From assembly GCF_000331105.1 (NCBI RefSeq), contig NC_020054.1:2760813-2824812 (forward strand): a DNA stretch of 64,000 nt, given 5' to 3'. The first letter of the stretch is position 1, and the number at the start of each line of letters is the position of its first letter. This document shows, piece after piece, positions 28,651 through 51,101 of the stretch. Position numbers and translations under genes: made by a program. A model generated the notes under the pieces. The model saw only the letters and a list, made by a program, of their open reading frames with translations, did not search any database and was not told the DNA's origin. This DNA is from Fibrella aestuarina BUZ 2 (lineage in GTDB: Bacteria; Bacteroidota; Bacteroidia; Cytophagales; Spirosomataceae).

Positions 28651-31600
28651 ATGGCTGCCTTCTCGCTCACCTTACGGCAGTCTCATCGGGGTTGGCGTTC
28701 ATGGTTCATGGGCCTACTTGTAGGCGTGATGGGGTGGAGCAGGTTAGCTTCGGCCCAAAATCACCAAGTACGTTTTGAGCGCCTTGGTCCCCTGCAGGGG
28801 CTAACCCATAGTACGGTTCATACCATTTATCAGGATCGACAAGGCTTTTTGTGGATTGCCACGCGTGATGGGCTCAACCGGTACGACGGACAGTCGTTTC
28901 GTACGTTCCGCCATCGTTTTGGTGAACCGAATAGTCTGCGGGGAAGCGATGTGGTGGCGTTAGGGGAGGATCTGTCCAGTCACCTCTGGGTAGGTACGTA
29001 TTCGCGGGGGCTACAGCGGCTCAACCCCGATGGATGCACATTCAGCCCTATCGAGCGGACTACCGCCGGGCTCGACGTCAGTCAATGGAGCATCTCCTGC
29101 CTGGCTACCGATCGGCAAGGGCGCGTTTGGGCCGGAACGCTAGGCAGTGGCTGGCTGGTTGTCGATACAAAAACCAATCAGGCAAGCCAGTTTCTGTTAC
29201 CCAAATCGGCAGGAGCAGCCAAGGTGATTACCTGTGCCATGACCGATCGGGATGGAAGTATGTGGTTTGGAACAGACGATGGCACTGTGGCTCGCTTTAA
29301 TGCTGCCGGTACGTTGGCTACCATCTATCGCTTACCTGATGCAGCCAGACAGTATCGCAGTTCGAAGCGGATAACGGCGCTTTTTCGCACGCAGTCGGGC
29401 TTGCTGCTGCTGGCCTCCCGGAACCATGGGCTTTATACCCTGAATGAGCGTAGCGGCCAGGCGGCCAAGCTCTTCGGAGCGGTCAACTCTGAACGGAGTG
29501 ACAACATCATTACCGCCATCGCTGAAGATAAAAACCATACGGTGTGGATTGGCACTGACGACGGAATCCGCCGCTTTTTGCCCAACCAGCCGTTGCAGGT
29601 ACAAGTCCTGCGGGCTGATCCGAATGATGAGTCAAGCTTATCGACCCACGCGGTTCAGTCGCTGCTGACCGACCGGCGGGGTAATGTCTGGGTAGGCACC
29701 TGGGAAGGCGGCCTCAACGTGTGGTATGCTGATCCGCCTCGGCTCGAAGTAATAAGTCAACGTCCTGCCGGACCGCGCCGACTCGTCACGCCGAAAGTAT
29801 CCGCTGTAGCTACGGATACCGCCGGAAACCTATGGATAGGGTCCGTACGCGGGTTGCTTCGTCTACCGAACAACGGCCAGCCTATTGAAACTGTACCCAT
29901 TCCGGCGGCATTTGGCAGCCGTGACGTCTACCGAATGTTCTCCGACCGGAGCGGCCATCTCTACGTTAGCTTCTGGAAGGGCGGGCTTGGTTTATACCAC
30001 GCACAAAAGGGGCTCAGTCGCCTGCCCCTACCCGGCCTCCCGGATGGGCACGTCGCCGCGTTTGCAAATAAGCAAGAGGGAGGAGTCTGGATGATTCGGA
30101 ACGACCAGCACCTATGCGCCTATACGCCACAGCAAAACCGGGTCGATACATTGGGGCACATTCATCGTATCCTGCATACATCCCCTTTTATTACATTCAC
30201 CTGTCTGTGGGAAGATCGGCAAAAACGGCTCTGGTTCGGCACCTACGACCACGGACTGTTTGTCTGGGATCGGCGTAGCGGGCAGGTTCGGCAACTTACG
30301 GCCCAAACCAGTGGTCTCAGCGAAAATCATATCACCTGCCTGTTCGAGGATTCGGCGGGCGACCTGTGGGTGGGGACCAATGGCGCTGGCCTTAACCGCA
30401 GGCGGCCCGGAATCGAGACATTTACGACCTACACCAGGCAAACCGGCTTGGCGGGCGATATGATTGCGGCCATCGAAGAGGATCGCCACGGCAACCTGTG
30501 GATCAGTACGACCGAGGGCCTCACGCGCCTGAACCGTTCGAGCGGCCGGATGTCCGTCTACGGCGAGACGGACGGCTTACCGACCCGCGAATTTGTTAAC
30601 CCCGGCAGTGTGCGGCTACCCAATGGCGACCTTGCCTTCGCCAGCACGCAGGGGCTGGTGCTGGTGCATCCCGACCAGTTCTTCAAACCGCTACCACCTC
30701 CCCGGGCGTATCTGGCCGACCTGGCCTTGTTTAACAAACCGGTGGCTGTTGGTGGAGCCGACTCGCCTCTTACTGTCGAACTGGCCCAGACAACTGAGCT
30801 TACCCTGACTCCCCGACAGACCGTCTTTACGCTGGAATTTGGCGCTTTATGCTGGGGCCGGAACCGCCACGTCCGCTATGCCTACAAATTGGATGAATTT
30901 GACCCGGACTGGCGCTACACAGATACGGAGAAAAACACGACGTATACCAACCTATCGCCCGGCAGTTACCTGTTTCGGCTCAAGGCTGCCCAGACAGACC
31001 AGCCCTGGGGCCCTGAGCAGCACCTGCTCATCACCGTGCAGCCGCCCTGGTTCAAGACCCGATGGGCTATCTGTTTGTACATCGCCCTGTTAATCGGGAT
31101 CGTCGTGCTGATCCGGCACATTATCCGGGTGCAGGAAAAGCTTAGGGCCGACGTGAAGATTCAGGAGATGCGTACCCAGGCCATCCGGCAGCTCGATGAA
31201 GCCAAGACCAGCTTTTTTACGAACGTATCCCACGAGTTTAAAACGCCCCTGACGCTGATTCTGACCCCGCTGGAGAAGCTACTGGCCGATGAATTACCGC
31301 CAGCGGATCGTTTACAGCACCAGTTTCAAGTGATGCACCGCAACGCCAACCGGCTACTTCGCTTAATCAACCAGTTGCTGGATCTCTCGAAGCTGGAGAA
31401 CGGTGCCTTGAAGCCGCAGATCAGGCGTAACAACCTCGTGCAGCACGTCGACGCTATTCTGCGCTCGTTCGAGGAGGTAGCCCGGGCTAAAGGCATATCC
31501 CTGAAAAGTCAGCTGGACCCGGCCTTACGCAGCGTTTGGTCCGATCTGGATTTCGTTGAAAAGATGGTTACCAACCTGCTGTCCAATTCGGTGAAGCATA

Positions 31601-32736
31601 CGCCCGACGGGGGACAAATAATGTTGACGGGCCACGTGCAGCAAGACCACCTGTTCCTGACGGTCACCGATACGGGTATTGGCATGTCGCTCGAAGAGCA
31701 GTCGCATATTTTTGAGCGCTTCTATCAGGTGCAAACCGGTAAATCGTCGGGTACGGGTATCGGTCTTTCGCTGACGAGGGAACTGGTTGAGCTGCTCGGG
31801 GGAAGTATTGAGGTGGCAAGCACACCCGGCGAAGGCAGTTCGTTCACGGTACGCATACCCGTCCGGGCCGACGCTTTTGAGGCTAGCTGGTTCGTTGACG
31901 AGGAGACAAACCCGCCTAGCCTGCTGATCGATCAGGTCATTCCCGATTTGTCTTCTGCATCTATTCCGGAACAGGCCCAGGTGCTGCTGATTGCCGAAGA
32001 TGATCCTGACTTGAACGCCTTTCTGACCGATCTCTTTAAAACCAGTTTTCGGGTTCTGTCCGCAACCAATGGTGAACAGGCGCTGCAACTCGCCCGGCAG
32101 CACATTCCCGATGCCATCATTACCGACTGGATCATGCCGGAACTGGAAGGCCCCGAGCTGTGCCGCTTGCTGAAGACCGACGAAAAGACGAGCCATATTC
32201 CGATCATTCTATTGACATCGAAAGCGAGCATGGCCAGTCAGTTGGCTGGTTTGGATGTGGGTGCCGACGATTACGTCACCAAGCCCTTTAGTGCGGCCCT
32301 CCTGCGGGGGCGCCTGCAAGGCCTTCTGGCCAATCGGCTACGGCTGCGGCAGGCGTTTGGCCAGGAGGTATGGCTACGCCCCAGCGATGTCAAGTTATCG
32401 AATGTTGATGAAGCCTTTCTGCAGCGGGCCACAGCCTGCATTGAAGAGCATATCGATGATGCCAATTTTGACATCGATCAGTTACAGGAATTGCTGAATA
32501 TGAGTCAGATGCAGCTCTACCGCAAGCTCAAAAGCCTGACAAACATGGCCGGGCGGGACTTTATCCGCTACATCCGGTTGCAGCGGGCGGCTCAGTTGCT
32601 GGAAACGGGGCAGGTGACAGTATCGGAAGCGGGCTACCGGGTTGGCTTTAACGACCGGAGCTATTTTAGTCGGGCCTTCAAAAAACAATTTGGCCACGCT
32701 CCAACGGAACACCTGTCAGCAAAAGATCAAGCCTGA
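28651..32736 (+). CDS. hybrid two-component system regulator (HTCS), AraC output
   Basis: The 1361-residue one-protein signalling system has a signal anchor (about 1-36), a periplasmic two-component propeller of repeated WIATRDGLNRYD-like units (about 40-690), a Y_Y_Y domain (about 740-805, VRYAYKLDEFDPDWRYTD), a transmembrane helix (about 812-835), a histidine kinase (H-box SHEFKTPLTL with His861; N-box NLLSNSVKHTPDGG; G-boxes DTGIGM and GTGIGLSLTRE), a receiver (AEDDPDLN; phospho-acceptor Asp1159 in ITDWIMPE; Lys in VTKPF) and an AraC helix-turn-helix pair (about 1250-1355). It should sense a glycan fragment in the periplasm and activate the divergent SusC/D operon. Confidence 0.96.
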   Translation: MAAFSLTLRQSHRGWRSWFMGLLVGVMGWSRLASAQNHQVRFERLGPLQGLTHSTVHTIYQDRQGFLWIATRDGLNRYDGQSFRTFRHRFGEPNSLRGSDVVALGEDLSSHLWVGTYSRGLQRLNPDGCTFSPIERTTAGLDVSQWSISCLATDRQGRVWAGTLGSGWLVVDTKTNQASQFLLPKSAGAAKVITCAMTDRDGSMWFGTDDGTVARFNAAGTLATIYRLPDAARQYRSSKRITALFRTQSGLLLLASRNHGLYTLNERSGQAAKLFGAVNSERSDNIITAIAEDKNHTVWIGTDDGIRRFLPNQPLQVQVLRADPNDESSLSTHAVQSLLTDRRGNVWVGTWEGGLNVWYADPPRLEVISQRPAGPRRLVTPKVSAVATDTAGNLWIGSVRGLLRLPNNGQPIETVPIPAAFGSRDVYRMFSDRSGHLYVSFWKGGLGLYHAQKGLSRLPLPGLPDGHVAAFANKQEGGVWMIRNDQHLCAYTPQQNRVDTLGHIHRILHTSPFITFTCLWEDRQKRLWFGTYDHGLFVWDRRSGQVRQLTAQTSGLSENHITCLFEDSAGDLWVGTNGAGLNRRRPGIETFTTYTRQTGLAGDMIAAIEEDRHGNLWISTTEGLTRLNRSSGRMSVYGETDGLPTREFVNPGSVRLPNGDLAFASTQGLVLVHPDQFFKPLPPPRAYLADLALFNKPVAVGGADSPLTVELAQTTELTLTPRQTVFTLEFGALCWGRNRHVRYAYKLDEFDPDWRYTDTEKNTTYTNLSPGSYLFRLKAAQTDQPWGPEQHLLITVQPPWFKTRWAICLYIALLIGIVVLIRHIIRVQEKLRADVKIQEMRTQAIRQLDEAKTSFFTNVSHEFKTPLTLILTPLEKLLADELPPADRLQHQFQVMHRNANRLLRLINQLLDLSKLENGALKPQIRRNNLVQHVDAILRSFEEVARAKGISLKSQLDPALRSVWSDLDFVEKMVTNLLSNSVKHTPDGGQIMLTGHVQQDHLFLTVTDTGIGMSLEEQSHIFERFYQVQTGKSSGTGIGLSLTRELVELLGGSIEVASTPGEGSSFTVRIPVRADAFEASWFVDEETNPPSLLIDQVIPDLSSASIPEQAQVLLIAEDDPDLNAFLTDLFKTSFRVLSATNGEQALQLARQHIPDAIITDWIMPELEGPELCRLLKTDEKTSHIPIILLTSKASMASQLAGLDVGADDYVTKPFSAALLRGRLQGLLANRLRLRQAFGQEVWLRPSDVKLSNVDEAFLQRATACIEEHIDDANFDIDQLQELLNMSQMQLYRKLKSLTNMAGRDFIRYIRLQRAAQLLETGQVTVSEAGYRVGFNDRSYFSRAFKKQFGHAPTEHLSAKDQA

Positions 32737-33089: not shown

Positions 33090-36080
33090 TCAAATTCCCC
33101 GGTTGATAGCCCGGTAGAAGGCGTCGGCTACGCCGGTGCGGATGCCGAGTTCGGTGATCTTGTTGTTGTTGCGCGTTGGATAGACGCGGTTCGACAGGAA
33201 TACGTAGTTCAGGCCAACGGCTGGGTCAATCCAGGTGAACGTACCGGTGAAGCCCGAGTGCCCGTAACTAGCCGGACTGGCGAGACGGGGGGCATTGCCG
33301 TTGTATTTGTAAGCGGGTTTCTCGAAGCCCAGCCCCCGGCGGTTGCCCAACTCAGGAAACTGGTAGCGGGTAAACTCAGCAATCGTTTCGGGACGGATCA
33401 ACTGCCGGTCGCCGTATTGGCCGCGTTGCAGGTACAGCTGCGTCAGCTTCATCAGGTCGTTGGCCGTACCAAACAGACCCGCGTGGCCCGACAGACCATT
33501 CAGCATGGCGGCACCTTCGTCGTGCACACGGCCCCAGATCAGCGTCTTGCGGAACAATGAGTCGTATTCCGTCGGTACGATGCGGCTGAGCGGGTAGAAC
33601 CGGCGCGGGTTGTAGGTAAGCGTGGTGGCCCCGATCGGCGCATACAGGCTGTCTTTCAGGTACGTTTCAAACGGTACGCCCGTGATCCGCTGCACGATCT
33701 GCGGGTAGAGATAAAACGACAGGTCGCTGTAGACGTACTCTTTCTTTGCGTTCAGCGGGGAGTCTTTGATCGCCTTAAAAATCGTGCGTGGGTACTTTTT
33801 GAACAGGAAGAGGCTGTCGGTCACTTCGATCGGATACCGGTTCGAGCGAACGTTGGTGAACGTTTTATTCTTGAACGTACCGTCGGGGTTTTTGGTCGTT
33901 TGCCAGAACGGAATCCAGGCTTTCAGTTTGGCCTGATGCGTCAGCACGTCGCGCCAGCGGAGCGTGTCTTTGTTTGATTTCTTGTAAGCAGGCAGGTATT
34001 GGCCCATCGTGCCGTCAATCTTGAACTTGCCCGCATCGACCAGCCGCATCAGCGCGGGCGTTGAGGTGCTGACTTTGGTGACCGACGCAAAATCGTACAG
34101 ATCGTCGAGGCGGGTAGGCTCGGCGGCACCACCCAGGCTGGTGTCGTAGGTGTGTTGCCCATACGCCTTACGGAAAATCACTTTCCCGTCTTTCGCCAGC
34201 TGCACCACGCAACCGGGGTACGCTTTGGCCTGCAAGCCCTGGTTCACCACCGAGTCGACCTGTTGCGCCAGGTACGTGCTGCTGATGCCTACTTCCTCGG
34301 GAATGGTGTATTTGAGACGGCCGATGGGCGCAATGGTTTTGCCATCGCCCACCCGGAACTGCTGATTGACGGTCACGGGCAGGCGACCCGCCGCGCCAAT
34401 CGCGCCAAAAATCAGTTGGGCCGACAGGTCTTCCGTATGGGTGGTGAGCTGATAGGGCATCACCAGCGCCCGTGCCTGATCCACGTCGGTAAAGGCGTCG
34501 AGCGCGTAGGCGTTACCAAAAACCGTCACGACGGCTTTGCCCGTGTTGGTCAGTTTTTGTACCAGTTCGACCGTGCGGGGCTGGATGCCGTATTTCGCGC
34601 CTGGCCGGATGTTGTTGAGGTGAACCCCCACCAGCACCAGATTAAACCGGTTCAGCGAATCCAGCAGCGCGGCAATCTGCGCGTCGGTGGCCTTCGAGTT
34701 AATCTGGTAGGGCGTTACGGTCGTGTAATCGGCCAGGCGGTTCTGGAACACCGTAGGCGCGGTAGCCTCAACCGACACCGACGCAATGCGCAGCGTATCG
34801 AGGCGTTGAAGGGGCAGCACGTTCCGGGTGTTGGTCAGCACCGTCAGGCTGGCTTCGGTGAGGTGGCGGTTGATCACCTCCGACTCCGGGCGGTTCAGGT
34901 CGGCCAGCAGGTTATCGAGCACCACGGGCTGGTAACGGTTCAGGCCCGCCCAGTATTTGGCCAGCAACATGCGGCGGCAGCGGTTGGCAATTTGCTGGGC
35001 TGTAACCGTGCGGTCGTCGACGGCCTGGCAAATCTGGCTGATCGCCATCGGGATATTTTCGGTGAACTCGAGGACGTCCATCCCGGCTTCCATCCCGCGC
35101 CGGTCGGCCAGGCCCGAAGGGAAGTATTTGGTCACGCCCTTCATGTTCATAGCGTCGGAGAAAACCAGGCCGTTGAACTGCAATTCATTCTTCAGCAGCT
35201 TCGTCACAATGTTGGGCGACAGCGTCGACGGGCGATTGCGCGTGGTGTCGAGAGCCGGAATGCTCAGGTGGGCCACCATCACGCCCGCCGCCCCGGCGTT
35301 GATCAACTCCCGGAACGGATACAGTTCCAGGCTGTCGAGCTGCCCCCGGCTTTTGTTGATCAAGGGAAGGTCGTAGTGTGAGTCGGTGCCGGTATCGCCG
35401 TGGCCGGGAAAGTGCTTGATGCTCGTTAGCAGGCGGTTATCCTGCATGCCGCGCAGGTAGGCCAGCGCCTTGCGGGCTACGGCATACTTGTCTTCGCCAA
35501 ACGACCGGAAGTTGATGACCGGGTTGTTGGGGTTGTTGTTCACGTCGGCATCGGGCGCAAAATTGACGTGCATCCCTAGCCGTCGGGCCTGCCGGGCAAG
35601 GTCAGCACCCATCTGGTAAATGAGGTTATCGGCCGAGGCGGGCATGGCGCCCATTGTCATCTGATAGGGGTAGCGTACGGTACTGTCGAGGCGCATGGCG
35701 ATGCCCCATTCGGCATCCATCGCTACCAGCAGGGGTACGTTCGAGGCGGCTTGCAGGCGGTTGTTCAGCTTCGCCTGCCGCATGGGCCCTCCCTGAAAAA
35801 ACACGACCCCGCCGAGTTGGTGGGTACGTACAAGGGTCGTCAGCGAATCTTCGTAGCCCGGCGTACGGTTCGAGTACCCCGCCACCATAATCAGCTGCGC
35901 TACCTGCCGTTCGAGCGGCAGATCGGCCATAATGGAGTCGGCCCAACGGGTGGCCGCGAGTGTATCGCGCAGAAAGGGTGGGGGAGTAGGGCGGGTGGCC
36001 GTTCGCGTTTGGGCCAGCAGCGGAAACGAAAAGACAAGGAGTATTGTAAGCGCGGCAATTATCCGACGAAGAGCAGTCAT
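33090..36080 (-). CDS. GH3 glycosidase fused to class C beta-lactamase-like serine hydrolase
   Basis: The 996-residue exported protein has a signal peptide (MTALRRIIAALTILLVFSFP). Residues about 40-370 are a GH3 catalytic domain of the NagZ-like type (KHFPGHGDTGTDSH, then FSDAMNMKGV with the nucleophile Asp), followed by a GH3 C-terminal alpha/beta domain to about 560. Residues about 590-990 form a serine beta-lactamase/DD-peptidase fold with SVTK (Ser-x-x-Lys), YSDLS in place of Tyr-Ser-Asn, and a late HSGFTGT motif. The combination suggests peptidoglycan or muropeptide recycling in the periplasm: beta-N-acetylglucosaminidase plus peptidase or esterase. The ATG at 36080 was chosen because it starts the signal peptide. 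Confidence 0.9.
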   Translation of the reverse strand: MTALRRIIAALTILLVFSFPLLAQTRTATRPTPPPFLRDTLAATRWADSIMADLPLERQVAQLIMVAGYSNRTPGYEDSLTTLVRTHQLGGVVFFQGGPMRQAKLNNRLQAASNVPLLVAMDAEWGIAMRLDSTVRYPYQMTMGAMPASADNLIYQMGADLARQARRLGMHVNFAPDADVNNNPNNPVINFRSFGEDKYAVARKALAYLRGMQDNRLLTSIKHFPGHGDTGTDSHYDLPLINKSRGQLDSLELYPFRELINAGAAGVMVAHLSIPALDTTRNRPSTLSPNIVTKLLKNELQFNGLVFSDAMNMKGVTKYFPSGLADRRGMEAGMDVLEFTENIPMAISQICQAVDDRTVTAQQIANRCRRMLLAKYWAGLNRYQPVVLDNLLADLNRPESEVINRHLTEASLTVLTNTRNVLPLQRLDTLRIASVSVEATAPTVFQNRLADYTTVTPYQINSKATDAQIAALLDSLNRFNLVLVGVHLNNIRPGAKYGIQPRTVELVQKLTNTGKAVVTVFGNAYALDAFTDVDQARALVMPYQLTTHTEDLSAQLIFGAIGAAGRLPVTVNQQFRVGDGKTIAPIGRLKYTIPEEVGISSTYLAQQVDSVVNQGLQAKAYPGCVVQLAKDGKVIFRKAYGQHTYDTSLGGAAEPTRLDDLYDFASVTKVSTSTPALMRLVDAGKFKIDGTMGQYLPAYKKSNKDTLRWRDVLTHQAKLKAWIPFWQTTKNPDGTFKNKTFTNVRSNRYPIEVTDSLFLFKKYPRTIFKAIKDSPLNAKKEYVYSDLSFYLYPQIVQRITGVPFETYLKDSLYAPIGATTLTYNPRRFYPLSRIVPTEYDSLFRKTLIWGRVHDEGAAMLNGLSGHAGLFGTANDLMKLTQLYLQRGQYGDRQLIRPETIAEFTRYQFPELGNRRGLGFEKPAYKYNGNAPRLASPASYGHSGFTGTFTWIDPAVGLNYVFLSNRVYPTRNNNKITELGIRTGVADAFYRAINRGI

Positions 36081-36387
36081 GCAGAAATGAGATGGATTGG
36101 CAATCCTCAAAAGTACGGACAAACCGACGGGAATGCTGCGCTGTTGGTCACCATTTCCCTCGTCAGCCGATAGGCTTATGACCGCGGCCGTTGGCGAATA
36201 GGAGTGGGTAGCGCTTGGGCGGCTGGTAGGAGCGGCTTGTCGCCGGATAGCGGGGCAATACGGTGGCTGGGTACGTTCGAGAAGAGGCTGGATAACATTG
36301 GGCTAACATTTTCTTAACATTCGCTTAACATTGAGACCGAAAGTTTGTATTATTACATGAACGAAGAGTTATAAACCTGCCATCATC
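36081..36387. promoter_or_regulatory. divergent promoter region with four TAACATT repeats at 11-bp spacing
   Basis: TAACATT occurs at 36293, 36304, 36315 and 36326, exactly 11 bp apart and in the same orientation; the last three are preceded by C or CT. This geometry is that of binding sites for OmpR/PhoB-class response regulators, which bind 11-bp direct repeats. The array ends about 55 bases before the start codon of the small secreted gene at 36388, suitable for activation of that gene. It could alternatively serve the divergent GH3 gene. The regulator is not identified here. Confidence 0.6.
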
Positions 36388-40558: not shown

Positions 40559-43063
40559 ATGAAATGGCCGACGTTTACCGACGCCTCTCCCAATGCCCAG
40601 TATAATTTTACGTCATCGCCCGGCGACCAGCGCCCCGTCCGCATACTGATTGTTGTCGGCCTGTTGTTCATGGCCGCGTTTGGGTGGGTGTACTTCCAAC
40701 CTGATAATGTGGGGTATTCGTGGCTGTACGTGCTGCTGACGATTTCGGTCGTTTTCAAGCTGTTGCGCTTGTTGCACGAGTGGTACCATTACTGGAACGT
40801 AAAACCGCCCGTTCGCCCCGCTACCATCGATCATCCGCTGACGGTCGACGTGCTGACGACCTACTGCCCCGGTGAGCCGTACGACATGGTGATCAATACG
40901 CTGAAAGCCATTCAGCGCATTCGCTATCCCCACACCACGTACCTGTGCGACGAAGCCAACGACCCGTATCTGAAACAGGTCTGTGCCGATATGGGCGTAC
41001 GGCACGTGACGCGCACCGAAAAAAAGGACGCCAAGGCCGGTAACATCAACAACGCCCTGCAGGAAGCCACGGGCGACATTTGCCTTGTCATCGACCCCGA
41101 CCACGTACCCGTACCCGATTTTCTGGATCAGGTCCTGCCGTATTTCAACGACCCGCAGATCGGGTTTGTACAGTGCGTACAGGGGTATTACAACCAGAAA
41201 GAGAGCATTGTCGCCTTCGGGGCTACCGAGCAGACCTACAGCTTCTACGGCCCGATGATGACCTGCATGGGGCACTACGGCACGGCGCAGGCGATTGGGG
41301 CCAACTGCACCTTCCGGCGCACGGCCCTCGACAGCATCGGTGGCCACGCCAACGGCCTGTCCGAAGACATGCACACGGCCATGCGGCTGCACGCGAAAGG
41401 CTGGAAGTCGGCCTACGTACCGCTTCCGCTGTCATACGGGCTGGTGCCGGCCACGATGGCGGCCTATTACAAGCAGCAATTGAAGTGGTCGCGGGGTACG
41501 TTCGAACTGCTGGTAACGACCCTGCCGCGCATCTTCAGCGGCCTCACGCTGCGCCAGAAAGTGCATTACACCACGTTGCCGCTCTATTATCTGCTGGGCC
41601 TCGTCTACTTCTTTGACTTGCTGATTCCCATCGGGGCGCTGGTATTGATGGAGATGCCCATCCGGCTCGATCTGCTGGTGTTTGGTACCGTCTATACGCC
41701 CCTGCTACTGACGGGTTTTCTGGTACGACAATACGCCCAGCGCTGGCTCATCGAAAAACACGAACCGGGGTTCCACCTCGTGGGCGGCATGCTCGCCAGC
41801 GGGACGTGGTGGGTCTATACACTTGGCCTGATTTACACCATTTTCCGGGTGAAAGTGCCTTACATTCCCACGCCGAAAGATGACCGACCCCGCAACAACT
41901 TCACGCTGATACTGCCGAATCTGCTGATGCTGCTGGCCACGATGGGGGCTATGAGCTACAGCATTTTCCACTACTGGCGGTTTGCGCTTCGAAACGAGTT
42001 CGTGCTGCTGATGCTGAGCTTTGCCTTTATCAATGCCACCGTGTTGAGTATCAACGTGCTGGTTGGGCAGGAGGCCTTCGTGCTGAGGGCCATCCGCTGG
42101 CTCGACCGGCTGAGCCTGCGCCAGTCGTCGATTCACACGGGCCGGGTGGTGATGTGGCAGGTGCGTTATGGCCTGTATGGCTGGCTCCGGCGGTCGGCGC
42201 TGCCCCTGTTTGGCGCACTGCTGCTGCTGGCGGGTGGGCTTATGGCCTACACCGTGGTGCGAAAAACGCGTCAGCTACCCCATGAGCTTCGGTACGCCAA
42301 CACGCAGCCGTTCTACTTCGGCAGCGAAACGCCGCAGCAGGCCGTTAGTGCGTTGCAGCCGGGCGGACAAACCATTGTGCCTCAACACCTGAACTGGCCC
42401 CTCAACACGTTTGAATCCATTGCGTCGCCCAAACTGAACAGCAACCCCGGCGAGTTGCCCCTGCTGTATCTGGAGCCGGAAATTGGCCAGCCCAATACCG
42501 AGCGGGCCGTGCAGGTCTTTCTCGGAGATGTGGTCAACGGTCGCTACGACGCCCCGCTGCTTCGGCTGGCCACTACGCTGCGCACGTACCCAGGCTTGGT
42601 GCTCATCAGCCTGATGCCCGAATTCGACGACCCGACGCAGGCATGGGGCATGCAACATCAGTCTACGCTGCTACAGTATCGGAAAGCCTGGCAGTATGTG
42701 GTCACGTTTCTGCGCGATCAGCGGGCCTACAACCTGTATTGGGTATGGTGTCCATCGCGCCCCAACACCATCGTAGAGCAATATCCGGGGGCCGATTACG
42801 TCGACTGGCTGGGGGTAACGGTCTACGACAATCCGGCGCAGAACCCCGATTCGCTGCATCACTCGTTTGCCTATTTGTTTCAGGAAACGCACAACACCAT
42901 TCGGATGCACAAGGCGTACAGCATTCGGCAGAAACCCGTGCTGATTACGCACTTCGGGACCACCGCTTCGCCCCAGTCGCCCGAGGGGGCCAACTGGAAA
43001 ACCGAGGCCTTCACCATGATTCACGAGCGTTACCCGCAGGTTCGCGGCGTTATCTTCGACTAA
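40559..43063 (+). CDS. GT2 cellulose-synthase-like glycosyltransferase fused to GH26-like domain
   Basis: The 834-residue protein starts with two membrane spans (about 28-75) and a processive GT2 domain: DEAND near 127, DPDH (Asp179/Asp181), SEDMH (Asp270) and QQLKW (306-310), a QxxRW-like acceptor motif. About five more spans follow (about 340-590). After the last span (about 548-566) the C-terminal 260 residues match a GH26 (mannanase-type) barrel: LMPEFDD with Glu688 at the acid/base position, VWCPSRPN, YPGADYVDWLGV and ITHFG. The GH26 nucleophile Glu is replaced by His798. It should synthesise and extrude a beta-linked polysaccharide; the outer domain probably binds or processes it. It is convergent with a GH2-like lipoprotein gene. 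Confidence 0.9.
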   Translation: MKWPTFTDASPNAQYNFTSSPGDQRPVRILIVVGLLFMAAFGWVYFQPDNVGYSWLYVLLTISVVFKLLRLLHEWYHYWNVKPPVRPATIDHPLTVDVLTTYCPGEPYDMVINTLKAIQRIRYPHTTYLCDEANDPYLKQVCADMGVRHVTRTEKKDAKAGNINNALQEATGDICLVIDPDHVPVPDFLDQVLPYFNDPQIGFVQCVQGYYNQKESIVAFGATEQTYSFYGPMMTCMGHYGTAQAIGANCTFRRTALDSIGGHANGLSEDMHTAMRLHAKGWKSAYVPLPLSYGLVPATMAAYYKQQLKWSRGTFELLVTTLPRIFSGLTLRQKVHYTTLPLYYLLGLVYFFDLLIPIGALVLMEMPIRLDLLVFGTVYTPLLLTGFLVRQYAQRWLIEKHEPGFHLVGGMLASGTWWVYTLGLIYTIFRVKVPYIPTPKDDRPRNNFTLILPNLLMLLATMGAMSYSIFHYWRFALRNEFVLLMLSFAFINATVLSINVLVGQEAFVLRAIRWLDRLSLRQSSIHTGRVVMWQVRYGLYGWLRRSALPLFGALLLLAGGLMAYTVVRKTRQLPHELRYANTQPFYFGSETPQQAVSALQPGGQTIVPQHLNWPLNTFESIASPKLNSNPGELPLLYLEPEIGQPNTERAVQVFLGDVVNGRYDAPLLRLATTLRTYPGLVLISLMPEFDDPTQAWGMQHQSTLLQYRKAWQYVVTFLRDQRAYNLYWVWCPSRPNTIVEQYPGADYVDWLGVTVYDNPAQNPDSLHHSFAYLFQETHNTIRMHKAYSIRQKPVLITHFGTTASPQSPEGANWKTEAFTMIHERYPQVRGVIFD

Positions 43064-43083: not shown

Positions 43084-44391
43084 TCAGTCCCCCTTTACCA
43101 CCCGGAAGGTGAGGTTGGCCGTCGCGACGTGGTTGTGCTGATCGTAGGCAAACACAAACAGCCGGTAGGGGCCCGGCGTCGACGGCAGCACAAATGACAG
43201 CCGCTGCCCATTGATGGGCGAGCGCGTCAGGCCTTCGATCGCCGGCATGGCGGTGCCCATAAAATGGGCTTTCTGCTGCGCCTGCGGCTTGATCTCCCAG
43301 TGATACGTCAACGTATCTCCGTCGGGGTCGGTGGCGAGTACATCGGCTAGCTGGAGCGTCGATGAGGCCGTGAACTCCCGGAAAGGCATCGACTGACCGT
43401 TCACGCGCAGGGCTTTGATAATGGGCGCACGGTTGCTGGGCGACGTACCTGACCATAGCTCCTGCATCAGGCCGACCATTGCCGACTCGCGCCCCGTTTC
43501 GTCGAATGCGCTGAACCAGGTGCTCGTCTCCTCCTGCTTGTTGCCCCAATAGAAAAAGTACGAACCCAGGCACTTGGGTGGCCGGGAGCCGATATGCTGC
43601 TTGTAAGCCTGTTTCACAAAATCGTATTTCTCCTGGCTGGTCGGCTCAACGGGCGTCACCCAGGGCGACGTACCTGACTCGCCCCAGAACCCTTTGGCAC
43701 CGTACTCCGAGAAAATATAGGGGCCTGTCCAGCCGCCTTCCTGAAGCCGCTGGGGCAGCTTATCGATTTCGCCGTACACATTGACCGACAGGATATCGAG
43801 GTCGGGGCAGCGTTCGCGCAACAGCCACACCTCGCGGCTGCTGTCGAGCGAGAGCGCCGTGGTTACCGGGTGCTCGGGGTCGAGTTTGTGCACTAGCTGC
43901 ATAAGCCGGTTCATCTCGTCGTAGGCATGCAGGTTGGTGGCATACAGACCCACTTCATTGCCTACGCACCACATCAGCAACGCGGGGTGGTTGCGGTATT
44001 TCAACACCGTTTGCCGGATGCGTTCCTGCTGTTTCTGAATGGCCTCGCCGTTGTTATAGTCAAACCCTTCGGTCTCCCGCTCGACCCACAGGCCCAGCAT
44101 CACCGTCAGGCCGAGTTTCTGGGCTTCGTCGAGCACCCGTTCGGCATCGTTATCGTCCCAAATCCGAATGGAATTGCCGCCGCAGGCTTTCAGGCGATCG
44201 AAGTAACGTACCCCACCCGCCCCTTCGATGAAATACGGTTTGCCGTGTCGGAGCAGCGTAAAGCCGGTAGCGGTGGATTGCACAGCTGTAGCAGGCTGGC
44301 TGGCGTCGCCCGGAAGGCGTTGTTGGGTTGAGCTGGTATCGTGACAGCCCCCAAGTGTGAGGACGAACAGGCAAAACAGCAACAACCGCAT
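43084..44391 (-). CDS. GH2-like TIM-barrel glycosidase lipoprotein
   Basis: The 435-residue protein has a lipoprotein signal (MRLLLFCLFVLTLGGC, Cys16). Residues about 40-330 are a TIM barrel of the glycoside hydrolase 2/5 type: GGNSIRIWDDND, LLMWCVGNEVG with the acid/base Glu146, and YIFSEYGAKGFWG with the nucleophile Glu229. Both catalytic residues are present. Residues about 335-435 form an Ig/cadherin-like module containing LATDPDGDTLTYHWEI. It ends 20 bases from the convergent GT2-GH26 gene, and I infer that it trims or releases the polysaccharide made by that synthase. Confidence 0.87.
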   Translation of the reverse strand: MRLLLFCLFVLTLGGCHDTSSTQQRLPGDASQPATAVQSTATGFTLLRHGKPYFIEGAGGVRYFDRLKACGGNSIRIWDDNDAERVLDEAQKLGLTVMLGLWVERETEGFDYNNGEAIQKQQERIRQTVLKYRNHPALLMWCVGNEVGLYATNLHAYDEMNRLMQLVHKLDPEHPVTTALSLDSSREVWLLRERCPDLDILSVNVYGEIDKLPQRLQEGGWTGPYIFSEYGAKGFWGESGTSPWVTPVEPTSQEKYDFVKQAYKQHIGSRPPKCLGSYFFYWGNKQEETSTWFSAFDETGRESAMVGLMQELWSGTSPSNRAPIIKALRVNGQSMPFREFTASSTLQLADVLATDPDGDTLTYHWEIKPQAQQKAHFMGTAMPAIEGLTRSPINGQRLSFVLPSTPGPYRLFVFAYDQHNHVATANLTFRVVKGD

Positions 44392-44570
44392 GATAGATAG
44401 GTCAGGGGAAAACATGCACCTATCTTGACCCATTGCGCTCCAACAAGTCACGTACCATTCAGCAGATTTTTTGGCAGCAGAGCCCCCCCGTTGTCCCTCT
44501 CAAGACCGCGTAGGGCCGCAAACGAAACGCGCCGGCAGCCGCTCCTGGTGCCTCGTTTCGTGCCCGCCCG

Positions 44571-46068: not shown

Positions 46069-46446
46069 ATGATTTTTGGCTATTACCGAGTATGCACCCA
46101 GGATCGGCAAACCGACGTCTTTGAGCGAGCATGTTGCCCGAAGCGCTTTATCGAAAAAGCCGACGGTGCCAAAATGAACCACCACCAACTACAGATGCTG
46201 CCTGAGCAACTGCGTTCTGGTGATACGTTCATGGTAATAAAGCTCGGGCGGCCCGGACGTAGCCTTCAGCGCCTGATCGATATTGCCCACGAACTGGAAG
46301 AGGGTGGGGTTGACTTCGTTTCCGTTCAGGATAACATTAATACCAGCCCTGCAACAGGCACAAAGTTGGGCAGTGGTTCTGGAACGTTAGTCAGGCACTT
46401 ACACCCTAGAGGCGCATCAGATGATGCCAAGCAATTAGTACGCTAG
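46069..46446 (+). pseudogene. decayed serine resolvase/invertase, N-terminal domain
   Basis: The 125-codon frame aligns with the N-terminal catalytic domain of small serine recombinases: MIFGYYRVCTQDRQTD, EQLRSGDTFMVIKLGRPGRS, LIDIAHELEEGGVDFVSVQD. The catalytic Ser of YxRVS is Cys here, the usual KLDRLGRS is KLGRPGRS, the segment around FERACCPKRFIEKADGAKMN is disturbed, and the frame loses similarity after about residue 105 with no DNA-binding domain. I read this as an inactive remnant of a mobile element. Confidence 0.75.
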
Positions 46447-50874: not shown

Positions 50875-51101
50875 TGATTTTAATCCAGTGAACCTGCTTA
50901 CCTAAGTAGCACCAGGGGCATTACCTACTTGATAAGTATGGTGTGAATGTTCCTTTTTTTCTTTTTGGATCGGTACCGATCTGCCCCAACTTGCCACGAA
51001 GGAGGTGTATCGTACACGACTGATGGAATTTGGCAGTTGGTAAAAAACACAGTCTCATCATTCACCTGGTCAACCAACGTGATTCCGTGCTTATTTTGAG
51101 T

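Follow-up and report, generated by a model that had tools for sequence, protein, structure and literature searches.

A GT2 synthase fused to a GH26 barrel without its nucleophile lies beside a GH158 gene in Fibrella aestuarina and its relatives

The 64,000-nucleotide stretch of the Fibrella aestuarina BUZ 2 genome analysed here (the window; NC_020054.1, positions 2,760,813 to 2,824,812, forward strand) encodes a protein, P0001, in which a synthase of glycosyltransferase family GT2 is fused to a C-terminal domain of glycoside hydrolase family GH26; a gene of family GH158, P0014, lies convergent to it, 20 bp away. An earlier note, made from the letters of this DNA, had proposed the fusion, with a His in place of the GH26 nucleophile. 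The features of the synthase gene, in window coordinates, are as follows.

40559..43063, plus strand: P0001, BcsA-like GT2 synthase with a C-terminal pseudo-GH26 domain, 834 amino acids (aa)
40895..41497, plus strand: GT2 domain, residues 113-313, with motifs CDE, DAKAGN, DPDH, SED and QQLKW (Pfam PF13641, motif counts)
41591..42259, plus strand: membrane region, residues 345-567 (hydropathy; helices in a low-confidence full-length model)
42371..43060, plus strand: pseudo-GH26 (beta/alpha)8 domain, residues 605-834, predicted periplasmic, stopping just past strand 8
42620..42622, plus strand: Glu688, GH26 acid/base position
42950..42952, plus strand: His798, GH26 nucleophile position

The fusion was confirmed by the Pfam scan and by the fold of the C-terminal domain. 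The GT2 domain matches PF13641 (E 9.5e-24) and carries the signature motifs CDE, DPDH and SED, while QxxRW reads QQLKW (41474-41488), the Arg being replaced by Lys in 38 of 39 aligned proteins. The nearest GT2 structure is BcsA (E 3e-37), with which P0001 shares the GT2 core and a gating-loop-like segment, YIPTPK; the BcsA motif is named FxVTxK in the part of PMC6821405 drawn on here. Unlike BcsA, however, P0001 has no PilZ match (Pfam scan, E up to 1), carries QxxKW, has an additional helix and a predicted periplasmic barrel, and reaches 176 bits on the CelA/BcsA model TIGR03030, below its cut-off of 699.1 bits. The PgaC and NodC models also match, more weakly, and the Pfam scan matched no GH17 domain in P0001. 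Because a K/R-rich loop (513-542) precedes the final hydrophobic helix (about 545-567, by hydropathy), this topology suggests that the barrel lies on the periplasmic side. The barrel scores above the curated cut-off of PF02156 and has a (beta/alpha)8 fold, which places it in GH26 by sequence and fold; its nearest GH26 structure (compared by VIA-align 2 on Foldseek's top 1000 chains) is a lichenase, so that the term "mannanase-like", used for it before, is not supported.

In the alignment with the GH26 lichenase CtLic26A, Glu688 aligns with the acid/base and His798 with the nucleophile, a column in which entry 2cip carries Gln. Unlike CtLic26A, the window domain lacks the nucleophile, the His before the acid/base and the segment after strand 8, and is tethered to a membrane synthase. 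Among the 39 aligned proteins, the window protein included, Glu at the nucleophile position was found only in P0039 and P0040. We then considered 59 distinct domains of the Spirosomataceae clade to which P0001 belongs (93 before duplicate removal, which took out only core-identical copies), chosen by a score above 230 to a hidden Markov model built mostly from that same clade. None of the 59 carries Glu or Asp at the nucleophile position, which is R in 27, H in 21, Q in eight, N in two and K in one; what the fusions of the clade share there is a basic or amide residue (59/59), His being one of several (21/59). The acid/base position is E in 36, A in eight, G in five, Q in four, R and Y in two each, and D and H in one each, so that the Glu kept in P0001 is gone from 23. 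On the GT2 tree, built by a quick method with the Shimodaira-Hasegawa-like approximate likelihood ratio test (SH-aLRT) as its sole measure of support, the 22 rows of the clade fall into a single group (support 100) and require at least ten changes at the nucleophile site, every state lying within R/H/Q/N/K, and at least seven at the acid/base.

Further departures appear in comparison with live domains, i.e. those with both catalytic Glu in the aligned columns, a label that reflects the alignment column only and is doubtful for L109, L111 and L112, in which the strand-7 motif is unusual. Arg684 is present in 58 of 60 live domains and is S, C or A in all 22 clade rows; Trp638 (59 of 60) is L or I in the clade; and the usual GH26 His before the acid/base, at residue 687, is Pro in 22/22, though in eight of the 60 live domains as well. 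A segment after strand 8 with a D-W motif (W in 55 of 59 live rows) is missing from the clade domains, the window protein stopping one residue beyond strand 8. These residue losses strongly indicate that the clade domain does not hydrolyse glycans, as the earlier note had suspected. Chance or misalignment as the source of the missing nucleophile was ruled out by the E/E columns in the 60 live relatives and by the CtLic26A alignment. Another Glu or Asp as the nucleophile was rejected as well: both D690 (59/59 in the clade; 48 D and nine E of 60 live domains) and E639 (56/59 and 54/60, respectively) are also conserved in live domains.

The domain evolves under constraint. The ratio of nonsynonymous to synonymous substitution rates (dN/dS) in six clade pairs is 0.07-0.14 for GH26 and 0.03-0.06 for GT2, with dS above 1 in three of the pairs. 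A GH26 value was obtained in 11 of 15 control pairs; in the ten with both Glu in both members it is 0.05-0.19, and in L060/L068, of which L068 has lost the acid/base, 0.34, while the GH158-like third domain described below gives 0.08-0.20 in the 11 control pairs with a value. As the ratios lie in the same range, the dead GH26 of the clade evolves no more freely than live domains, which disfavours pseudogene decay.

The neighbouring gene has the following features.

43084..44451, minus strand: P0014, GH158-family beta-1,3-glucanase-like protein with lipobox LGGC (GH158 structure matches)
43954-43956, minus strand: catalytic E166, intact
43705-43707, minus strand: catalytic E249, intact

Its translation more likely starts at the ATG at 44391. 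Matches to the structures 9oro (E 1e-87) and 6pal (E 4e-61) place P0014 in GH158, and it aligns over residues 56-452 with the endo-beta-1,3-glucanase BuGH158, N165-E166 and E249, by our count of residues, falling in the columns of N136-E137 and E220 with a spacing of 83 in both; replacement of E137 or E220 by Ala abolished the activity of BuGH158, according to the part of PMC7157763 drawn on here. Unlike BuGH158, which that source assigns to a glucan utilisation locus, P0014 is paired with a synthase. The pairing recurs among relatives, collected by a scan of genome contigs from which the 80 best of 217 matches, spread over 79 loci, were kept (some genomes duplicate others, and the rows are partly redundant). 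A separate GH158 open reading frame (ORF) accompanies 74 of the 80 synthase ORFs, 73 within 330 bp and one at 2.3 kb, and 73 of these 74 frames retain both catalytic Glu, the exception, L078, being a split frame. The six without it comprise L027 and L080, at contig ends, L067, whose locus extends just 0.8 kb to one side, and L018, L069 and L082, with 5-8 kb on both sides. The lipobox pattern occurs in just 29 of the 74 GH158 frames, which does not establish lipid anchoring as general. When 12 window genes were looked for in 24 loci (up to 8 kb each side), all 24 had the synthase and 22 had GH158; the MFS and MazG neighbours occurred only in L007 (Fibrella forsythiae), and the ORF at 51030 once, at 35%, in L017. 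L007 is also the closest locus among the matches listed (70% identical). In its own genome P0014 finds only itself, and P0001 itself and two weak partial GT2 matches; PF02156 reveals two further GH26 genes there. The synthase-GH158 pair of Fibrisoma limi (L010) lies on plasmid pFLIM01; in a plasmid collection the synthase had no match at E 1e-40, and GH158 matched 16 records, all below 60% identity.

Matches to the synthase (E up to 1e-150) occur in 56 of 200 genomes of the family; at the level of the order, 126 of 390 genomes contain a match to P0039 (E up to 1e-20). The usual architecture is GT2-GH26-GH158-like, in most cases with an open frame of 1,240-1,360 residues (shorter in L062, L080, L106 and a few others), found in Chitinophaga, Pedobacter, some Pontibacter, flavobacteria and others. 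In 47 of 63 cases (loci L028-L084 and L086-L112) at least one of the two catalytic Glu is missing from the fused third domain, whose catalytic columns come from MAFFT at low identity, with no structure. Among 105 synthases classed by both domains, 42 have a live GH26 and a dead third domain, 23 a dead GH26 and no third domain, 14 have both live and five both dead, two carry a live GH26 without a third domain and two a dead GH26 with a live third domain, and 17 have no barrel; a dead barrel is hence present in 72 of the 88 barrel-bearing synthases. The fewest changes on the GT2 tree are ten for the GH26 state, five for the nucleophile alone and seven for the third domain.

Variants of the arrangement were also seen. 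Barrel-less related synthases (about 610 aa) occur in L031-L042, Pontibacter loci among them, and in other Pontibacter loci, mostly still beside GH158. In genomes of group g50 (e.g. G238 and G289) the fusion is split into neighbouring frames of about 540 aa (GT2) and 390 aa (GH26). In group g4 (e.g. G355 and G317), frames of about 980 aa match the GT2 and GH158-like parts of P0039 with no listed GH26 match, which suggests a GT2-GH158 form. A frame of about 515-660 aa with tandem GH26-like matches lies near the synthase in L022 (11843-13654), L053 (11727-13430), L026, L060, L063, L064, L066, L068, L070 and L100; that of L022 has an N-terminal hydrophobic stretch, and its first barrel looks dead and its second live. 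Pfam gave no match to the tandem frame in L022 and a marginal one in L053.

The adjacent GH158 gene and the live three-domain relatives provide a context for the GH26 domain. In the reading that we consider reasonably probable, an inner-membrane processive synthase most likely makes a beta-glucan and passes the chain into the periplasm, where it would meet the tethered, non-cleaving GH26-fold domain; this domain would bind, orient or dock the chain, and the GH158 protein, to judge from its family and gene linkage, would then trim or rearrange it. The glycan binding or guiding raised in the earlier note is consistent with such a role. The clade domain would derive from a live GH26 of the kind that other Bacteroidota retain on this synthase; the Spirosomataceae clade has no GH158-like barrel, and the one barrel left to it, GH26, would have turned non-catalytic.

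It is also conceivable, though rather unlikely, that the dead barrel is a protein-protein scaffold, serving to dock the GH158 protein or to stabilise the synthase without touching glucan. W728, W730, W750, K792 and R824, among others, are invariant in 59/59 clade domains; W613 (56/59), E639, D690 and W730 are carried over from the live form, and residues gained at about 782-791 and at 824 (R782, H784, Y787, R790 and R824) sit before strands 7 and 8, on a face which, by barrel topology read from secondary structure and not from coordinates, is opposite the old cleft. The gained residues and the GH158 neighbour in 74 of 80 loci speak for the scaffold; however, the former nucleophile site has stayed polar, with hydrogen-bond donors, through at least ten changes, and the retention of W613, E639 and W730 suggests that the cleft still matters.

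A further alternative, which overlaps the reading we prefer, keeps the same arrangement for another polymer, e.g. a mannan-containing or aminosugar one. The substrate of a GT2 cannot be read from sequence, and the weaker PgaC and NodC matches point this way, but BcsA as the nearest GT2 structure, a lichenase as the nearest GH26 and a partner in a beta-1,3-glucanase family make it quite improbable. Still less credit is due to the domain as a decaying relic heading for loss, as in Pontibacter, where most synthases found are barrel-less: although 17 of 105 synthases lack the barrel, several inactivations were independent and the C-terminal segment is gone, the dN/dS of the clade falls inside the live-domain range, the invariant residues persist and the 22 clade frames are open throughout GH26. 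Catalysis by a changed mechanism with His/Arg or another carboxylate, an option left by the earlier note and favoured by the retention of E688 (36/59), D690 and E639, is hardly tenable, as the acid/base is lost in 23/59, the post-strand-8 segment is missing, and D690 and E639 are no new replacements.

Several points weigh against glucan handling by a dead barrel. Some related synthases, 17 of the 105, carry no barrel; contig ends truncate two of these, L085 and L101, whose GT2 domains are identical, so that 15 remain. Pro at 687 also occurs in eight of 60 live domains and is by itself no sign of death. The newly conserved face would suit docking no less than glycan binding. With a predicted local distance difference test score (pLDDT) of 68 and a predicted template modelling score (pTM) of 0.50, the full-length model of P0001 is too weak to place the domain over the channel. 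Finally, the presumed beta-glucan is deduced from the partner families alone, and QxxKW and the low CelA score count against it.

The nearest described kind that we found is the Pseudomonas 'Orphan'/NdvB GH17-GT2 cyclic-beta-glucan synthase, which, in the part of PMC10237404 drawn on here, likewise joins a GT2 resembling BcsA and membrane helices, in a single polypeptide, to a TIM-barrel glycosidase domain predicted to be periplasmic. That domain is an N-terminal GH17, proposed to act on nascent beta-1,3-glucan, cleaving and cyclising it; the barrel of P0001, on the other hand, is C-terminal, belongs to GH26, lacks the catalytic pair and has a separate GH158 gene alongside. Of two other GT2 synthases, RiGT2 was shown, and BgsA, which has no PilZ, suggested, to make beta-1,3-1,4-glucan (PMC10374906); GH26 is absent from the main text of that paper, and we liken them to P0001 by description, not sequence. 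A narrow search of openly licensed literature found no description of a GT2-GH26 fusion or a pseudo-GH26.

Elsewhere in the window lie a GH3 fused to a beta-lactamase-type domain (33090-36122, minus strand), a hybrid two-component regulator with Reg_prop, HisKA, response regulator and AraC-type helix-turn-helix (HTH) domains (28651-32736, plus strand), and a short resolvase N-terminal domain, possibly a mobile-element remnant (46069-46446, plus strand).

We put forward tentatively a wider arrangement, in which glucan synthases across the Bacteroidota would receive the chain in covalently tethered periplasmic TIM barrels, at least one usually being a pseudo-glycosidase that would offer the chain to an intact GH158 protein; the dead barrel would be GH158-like in most lineages and GH26 in the clade of the window. 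As the fusion exists in nature in both a live and a dead form, the role of the cut is testable by domain swaps. How a synthase delivers its nascent chain to the tailoring enzymes of the periplasm is, in our judgement, poorly understood, and pseudo-glycosidases fused to the synthase itself would show how this happens.
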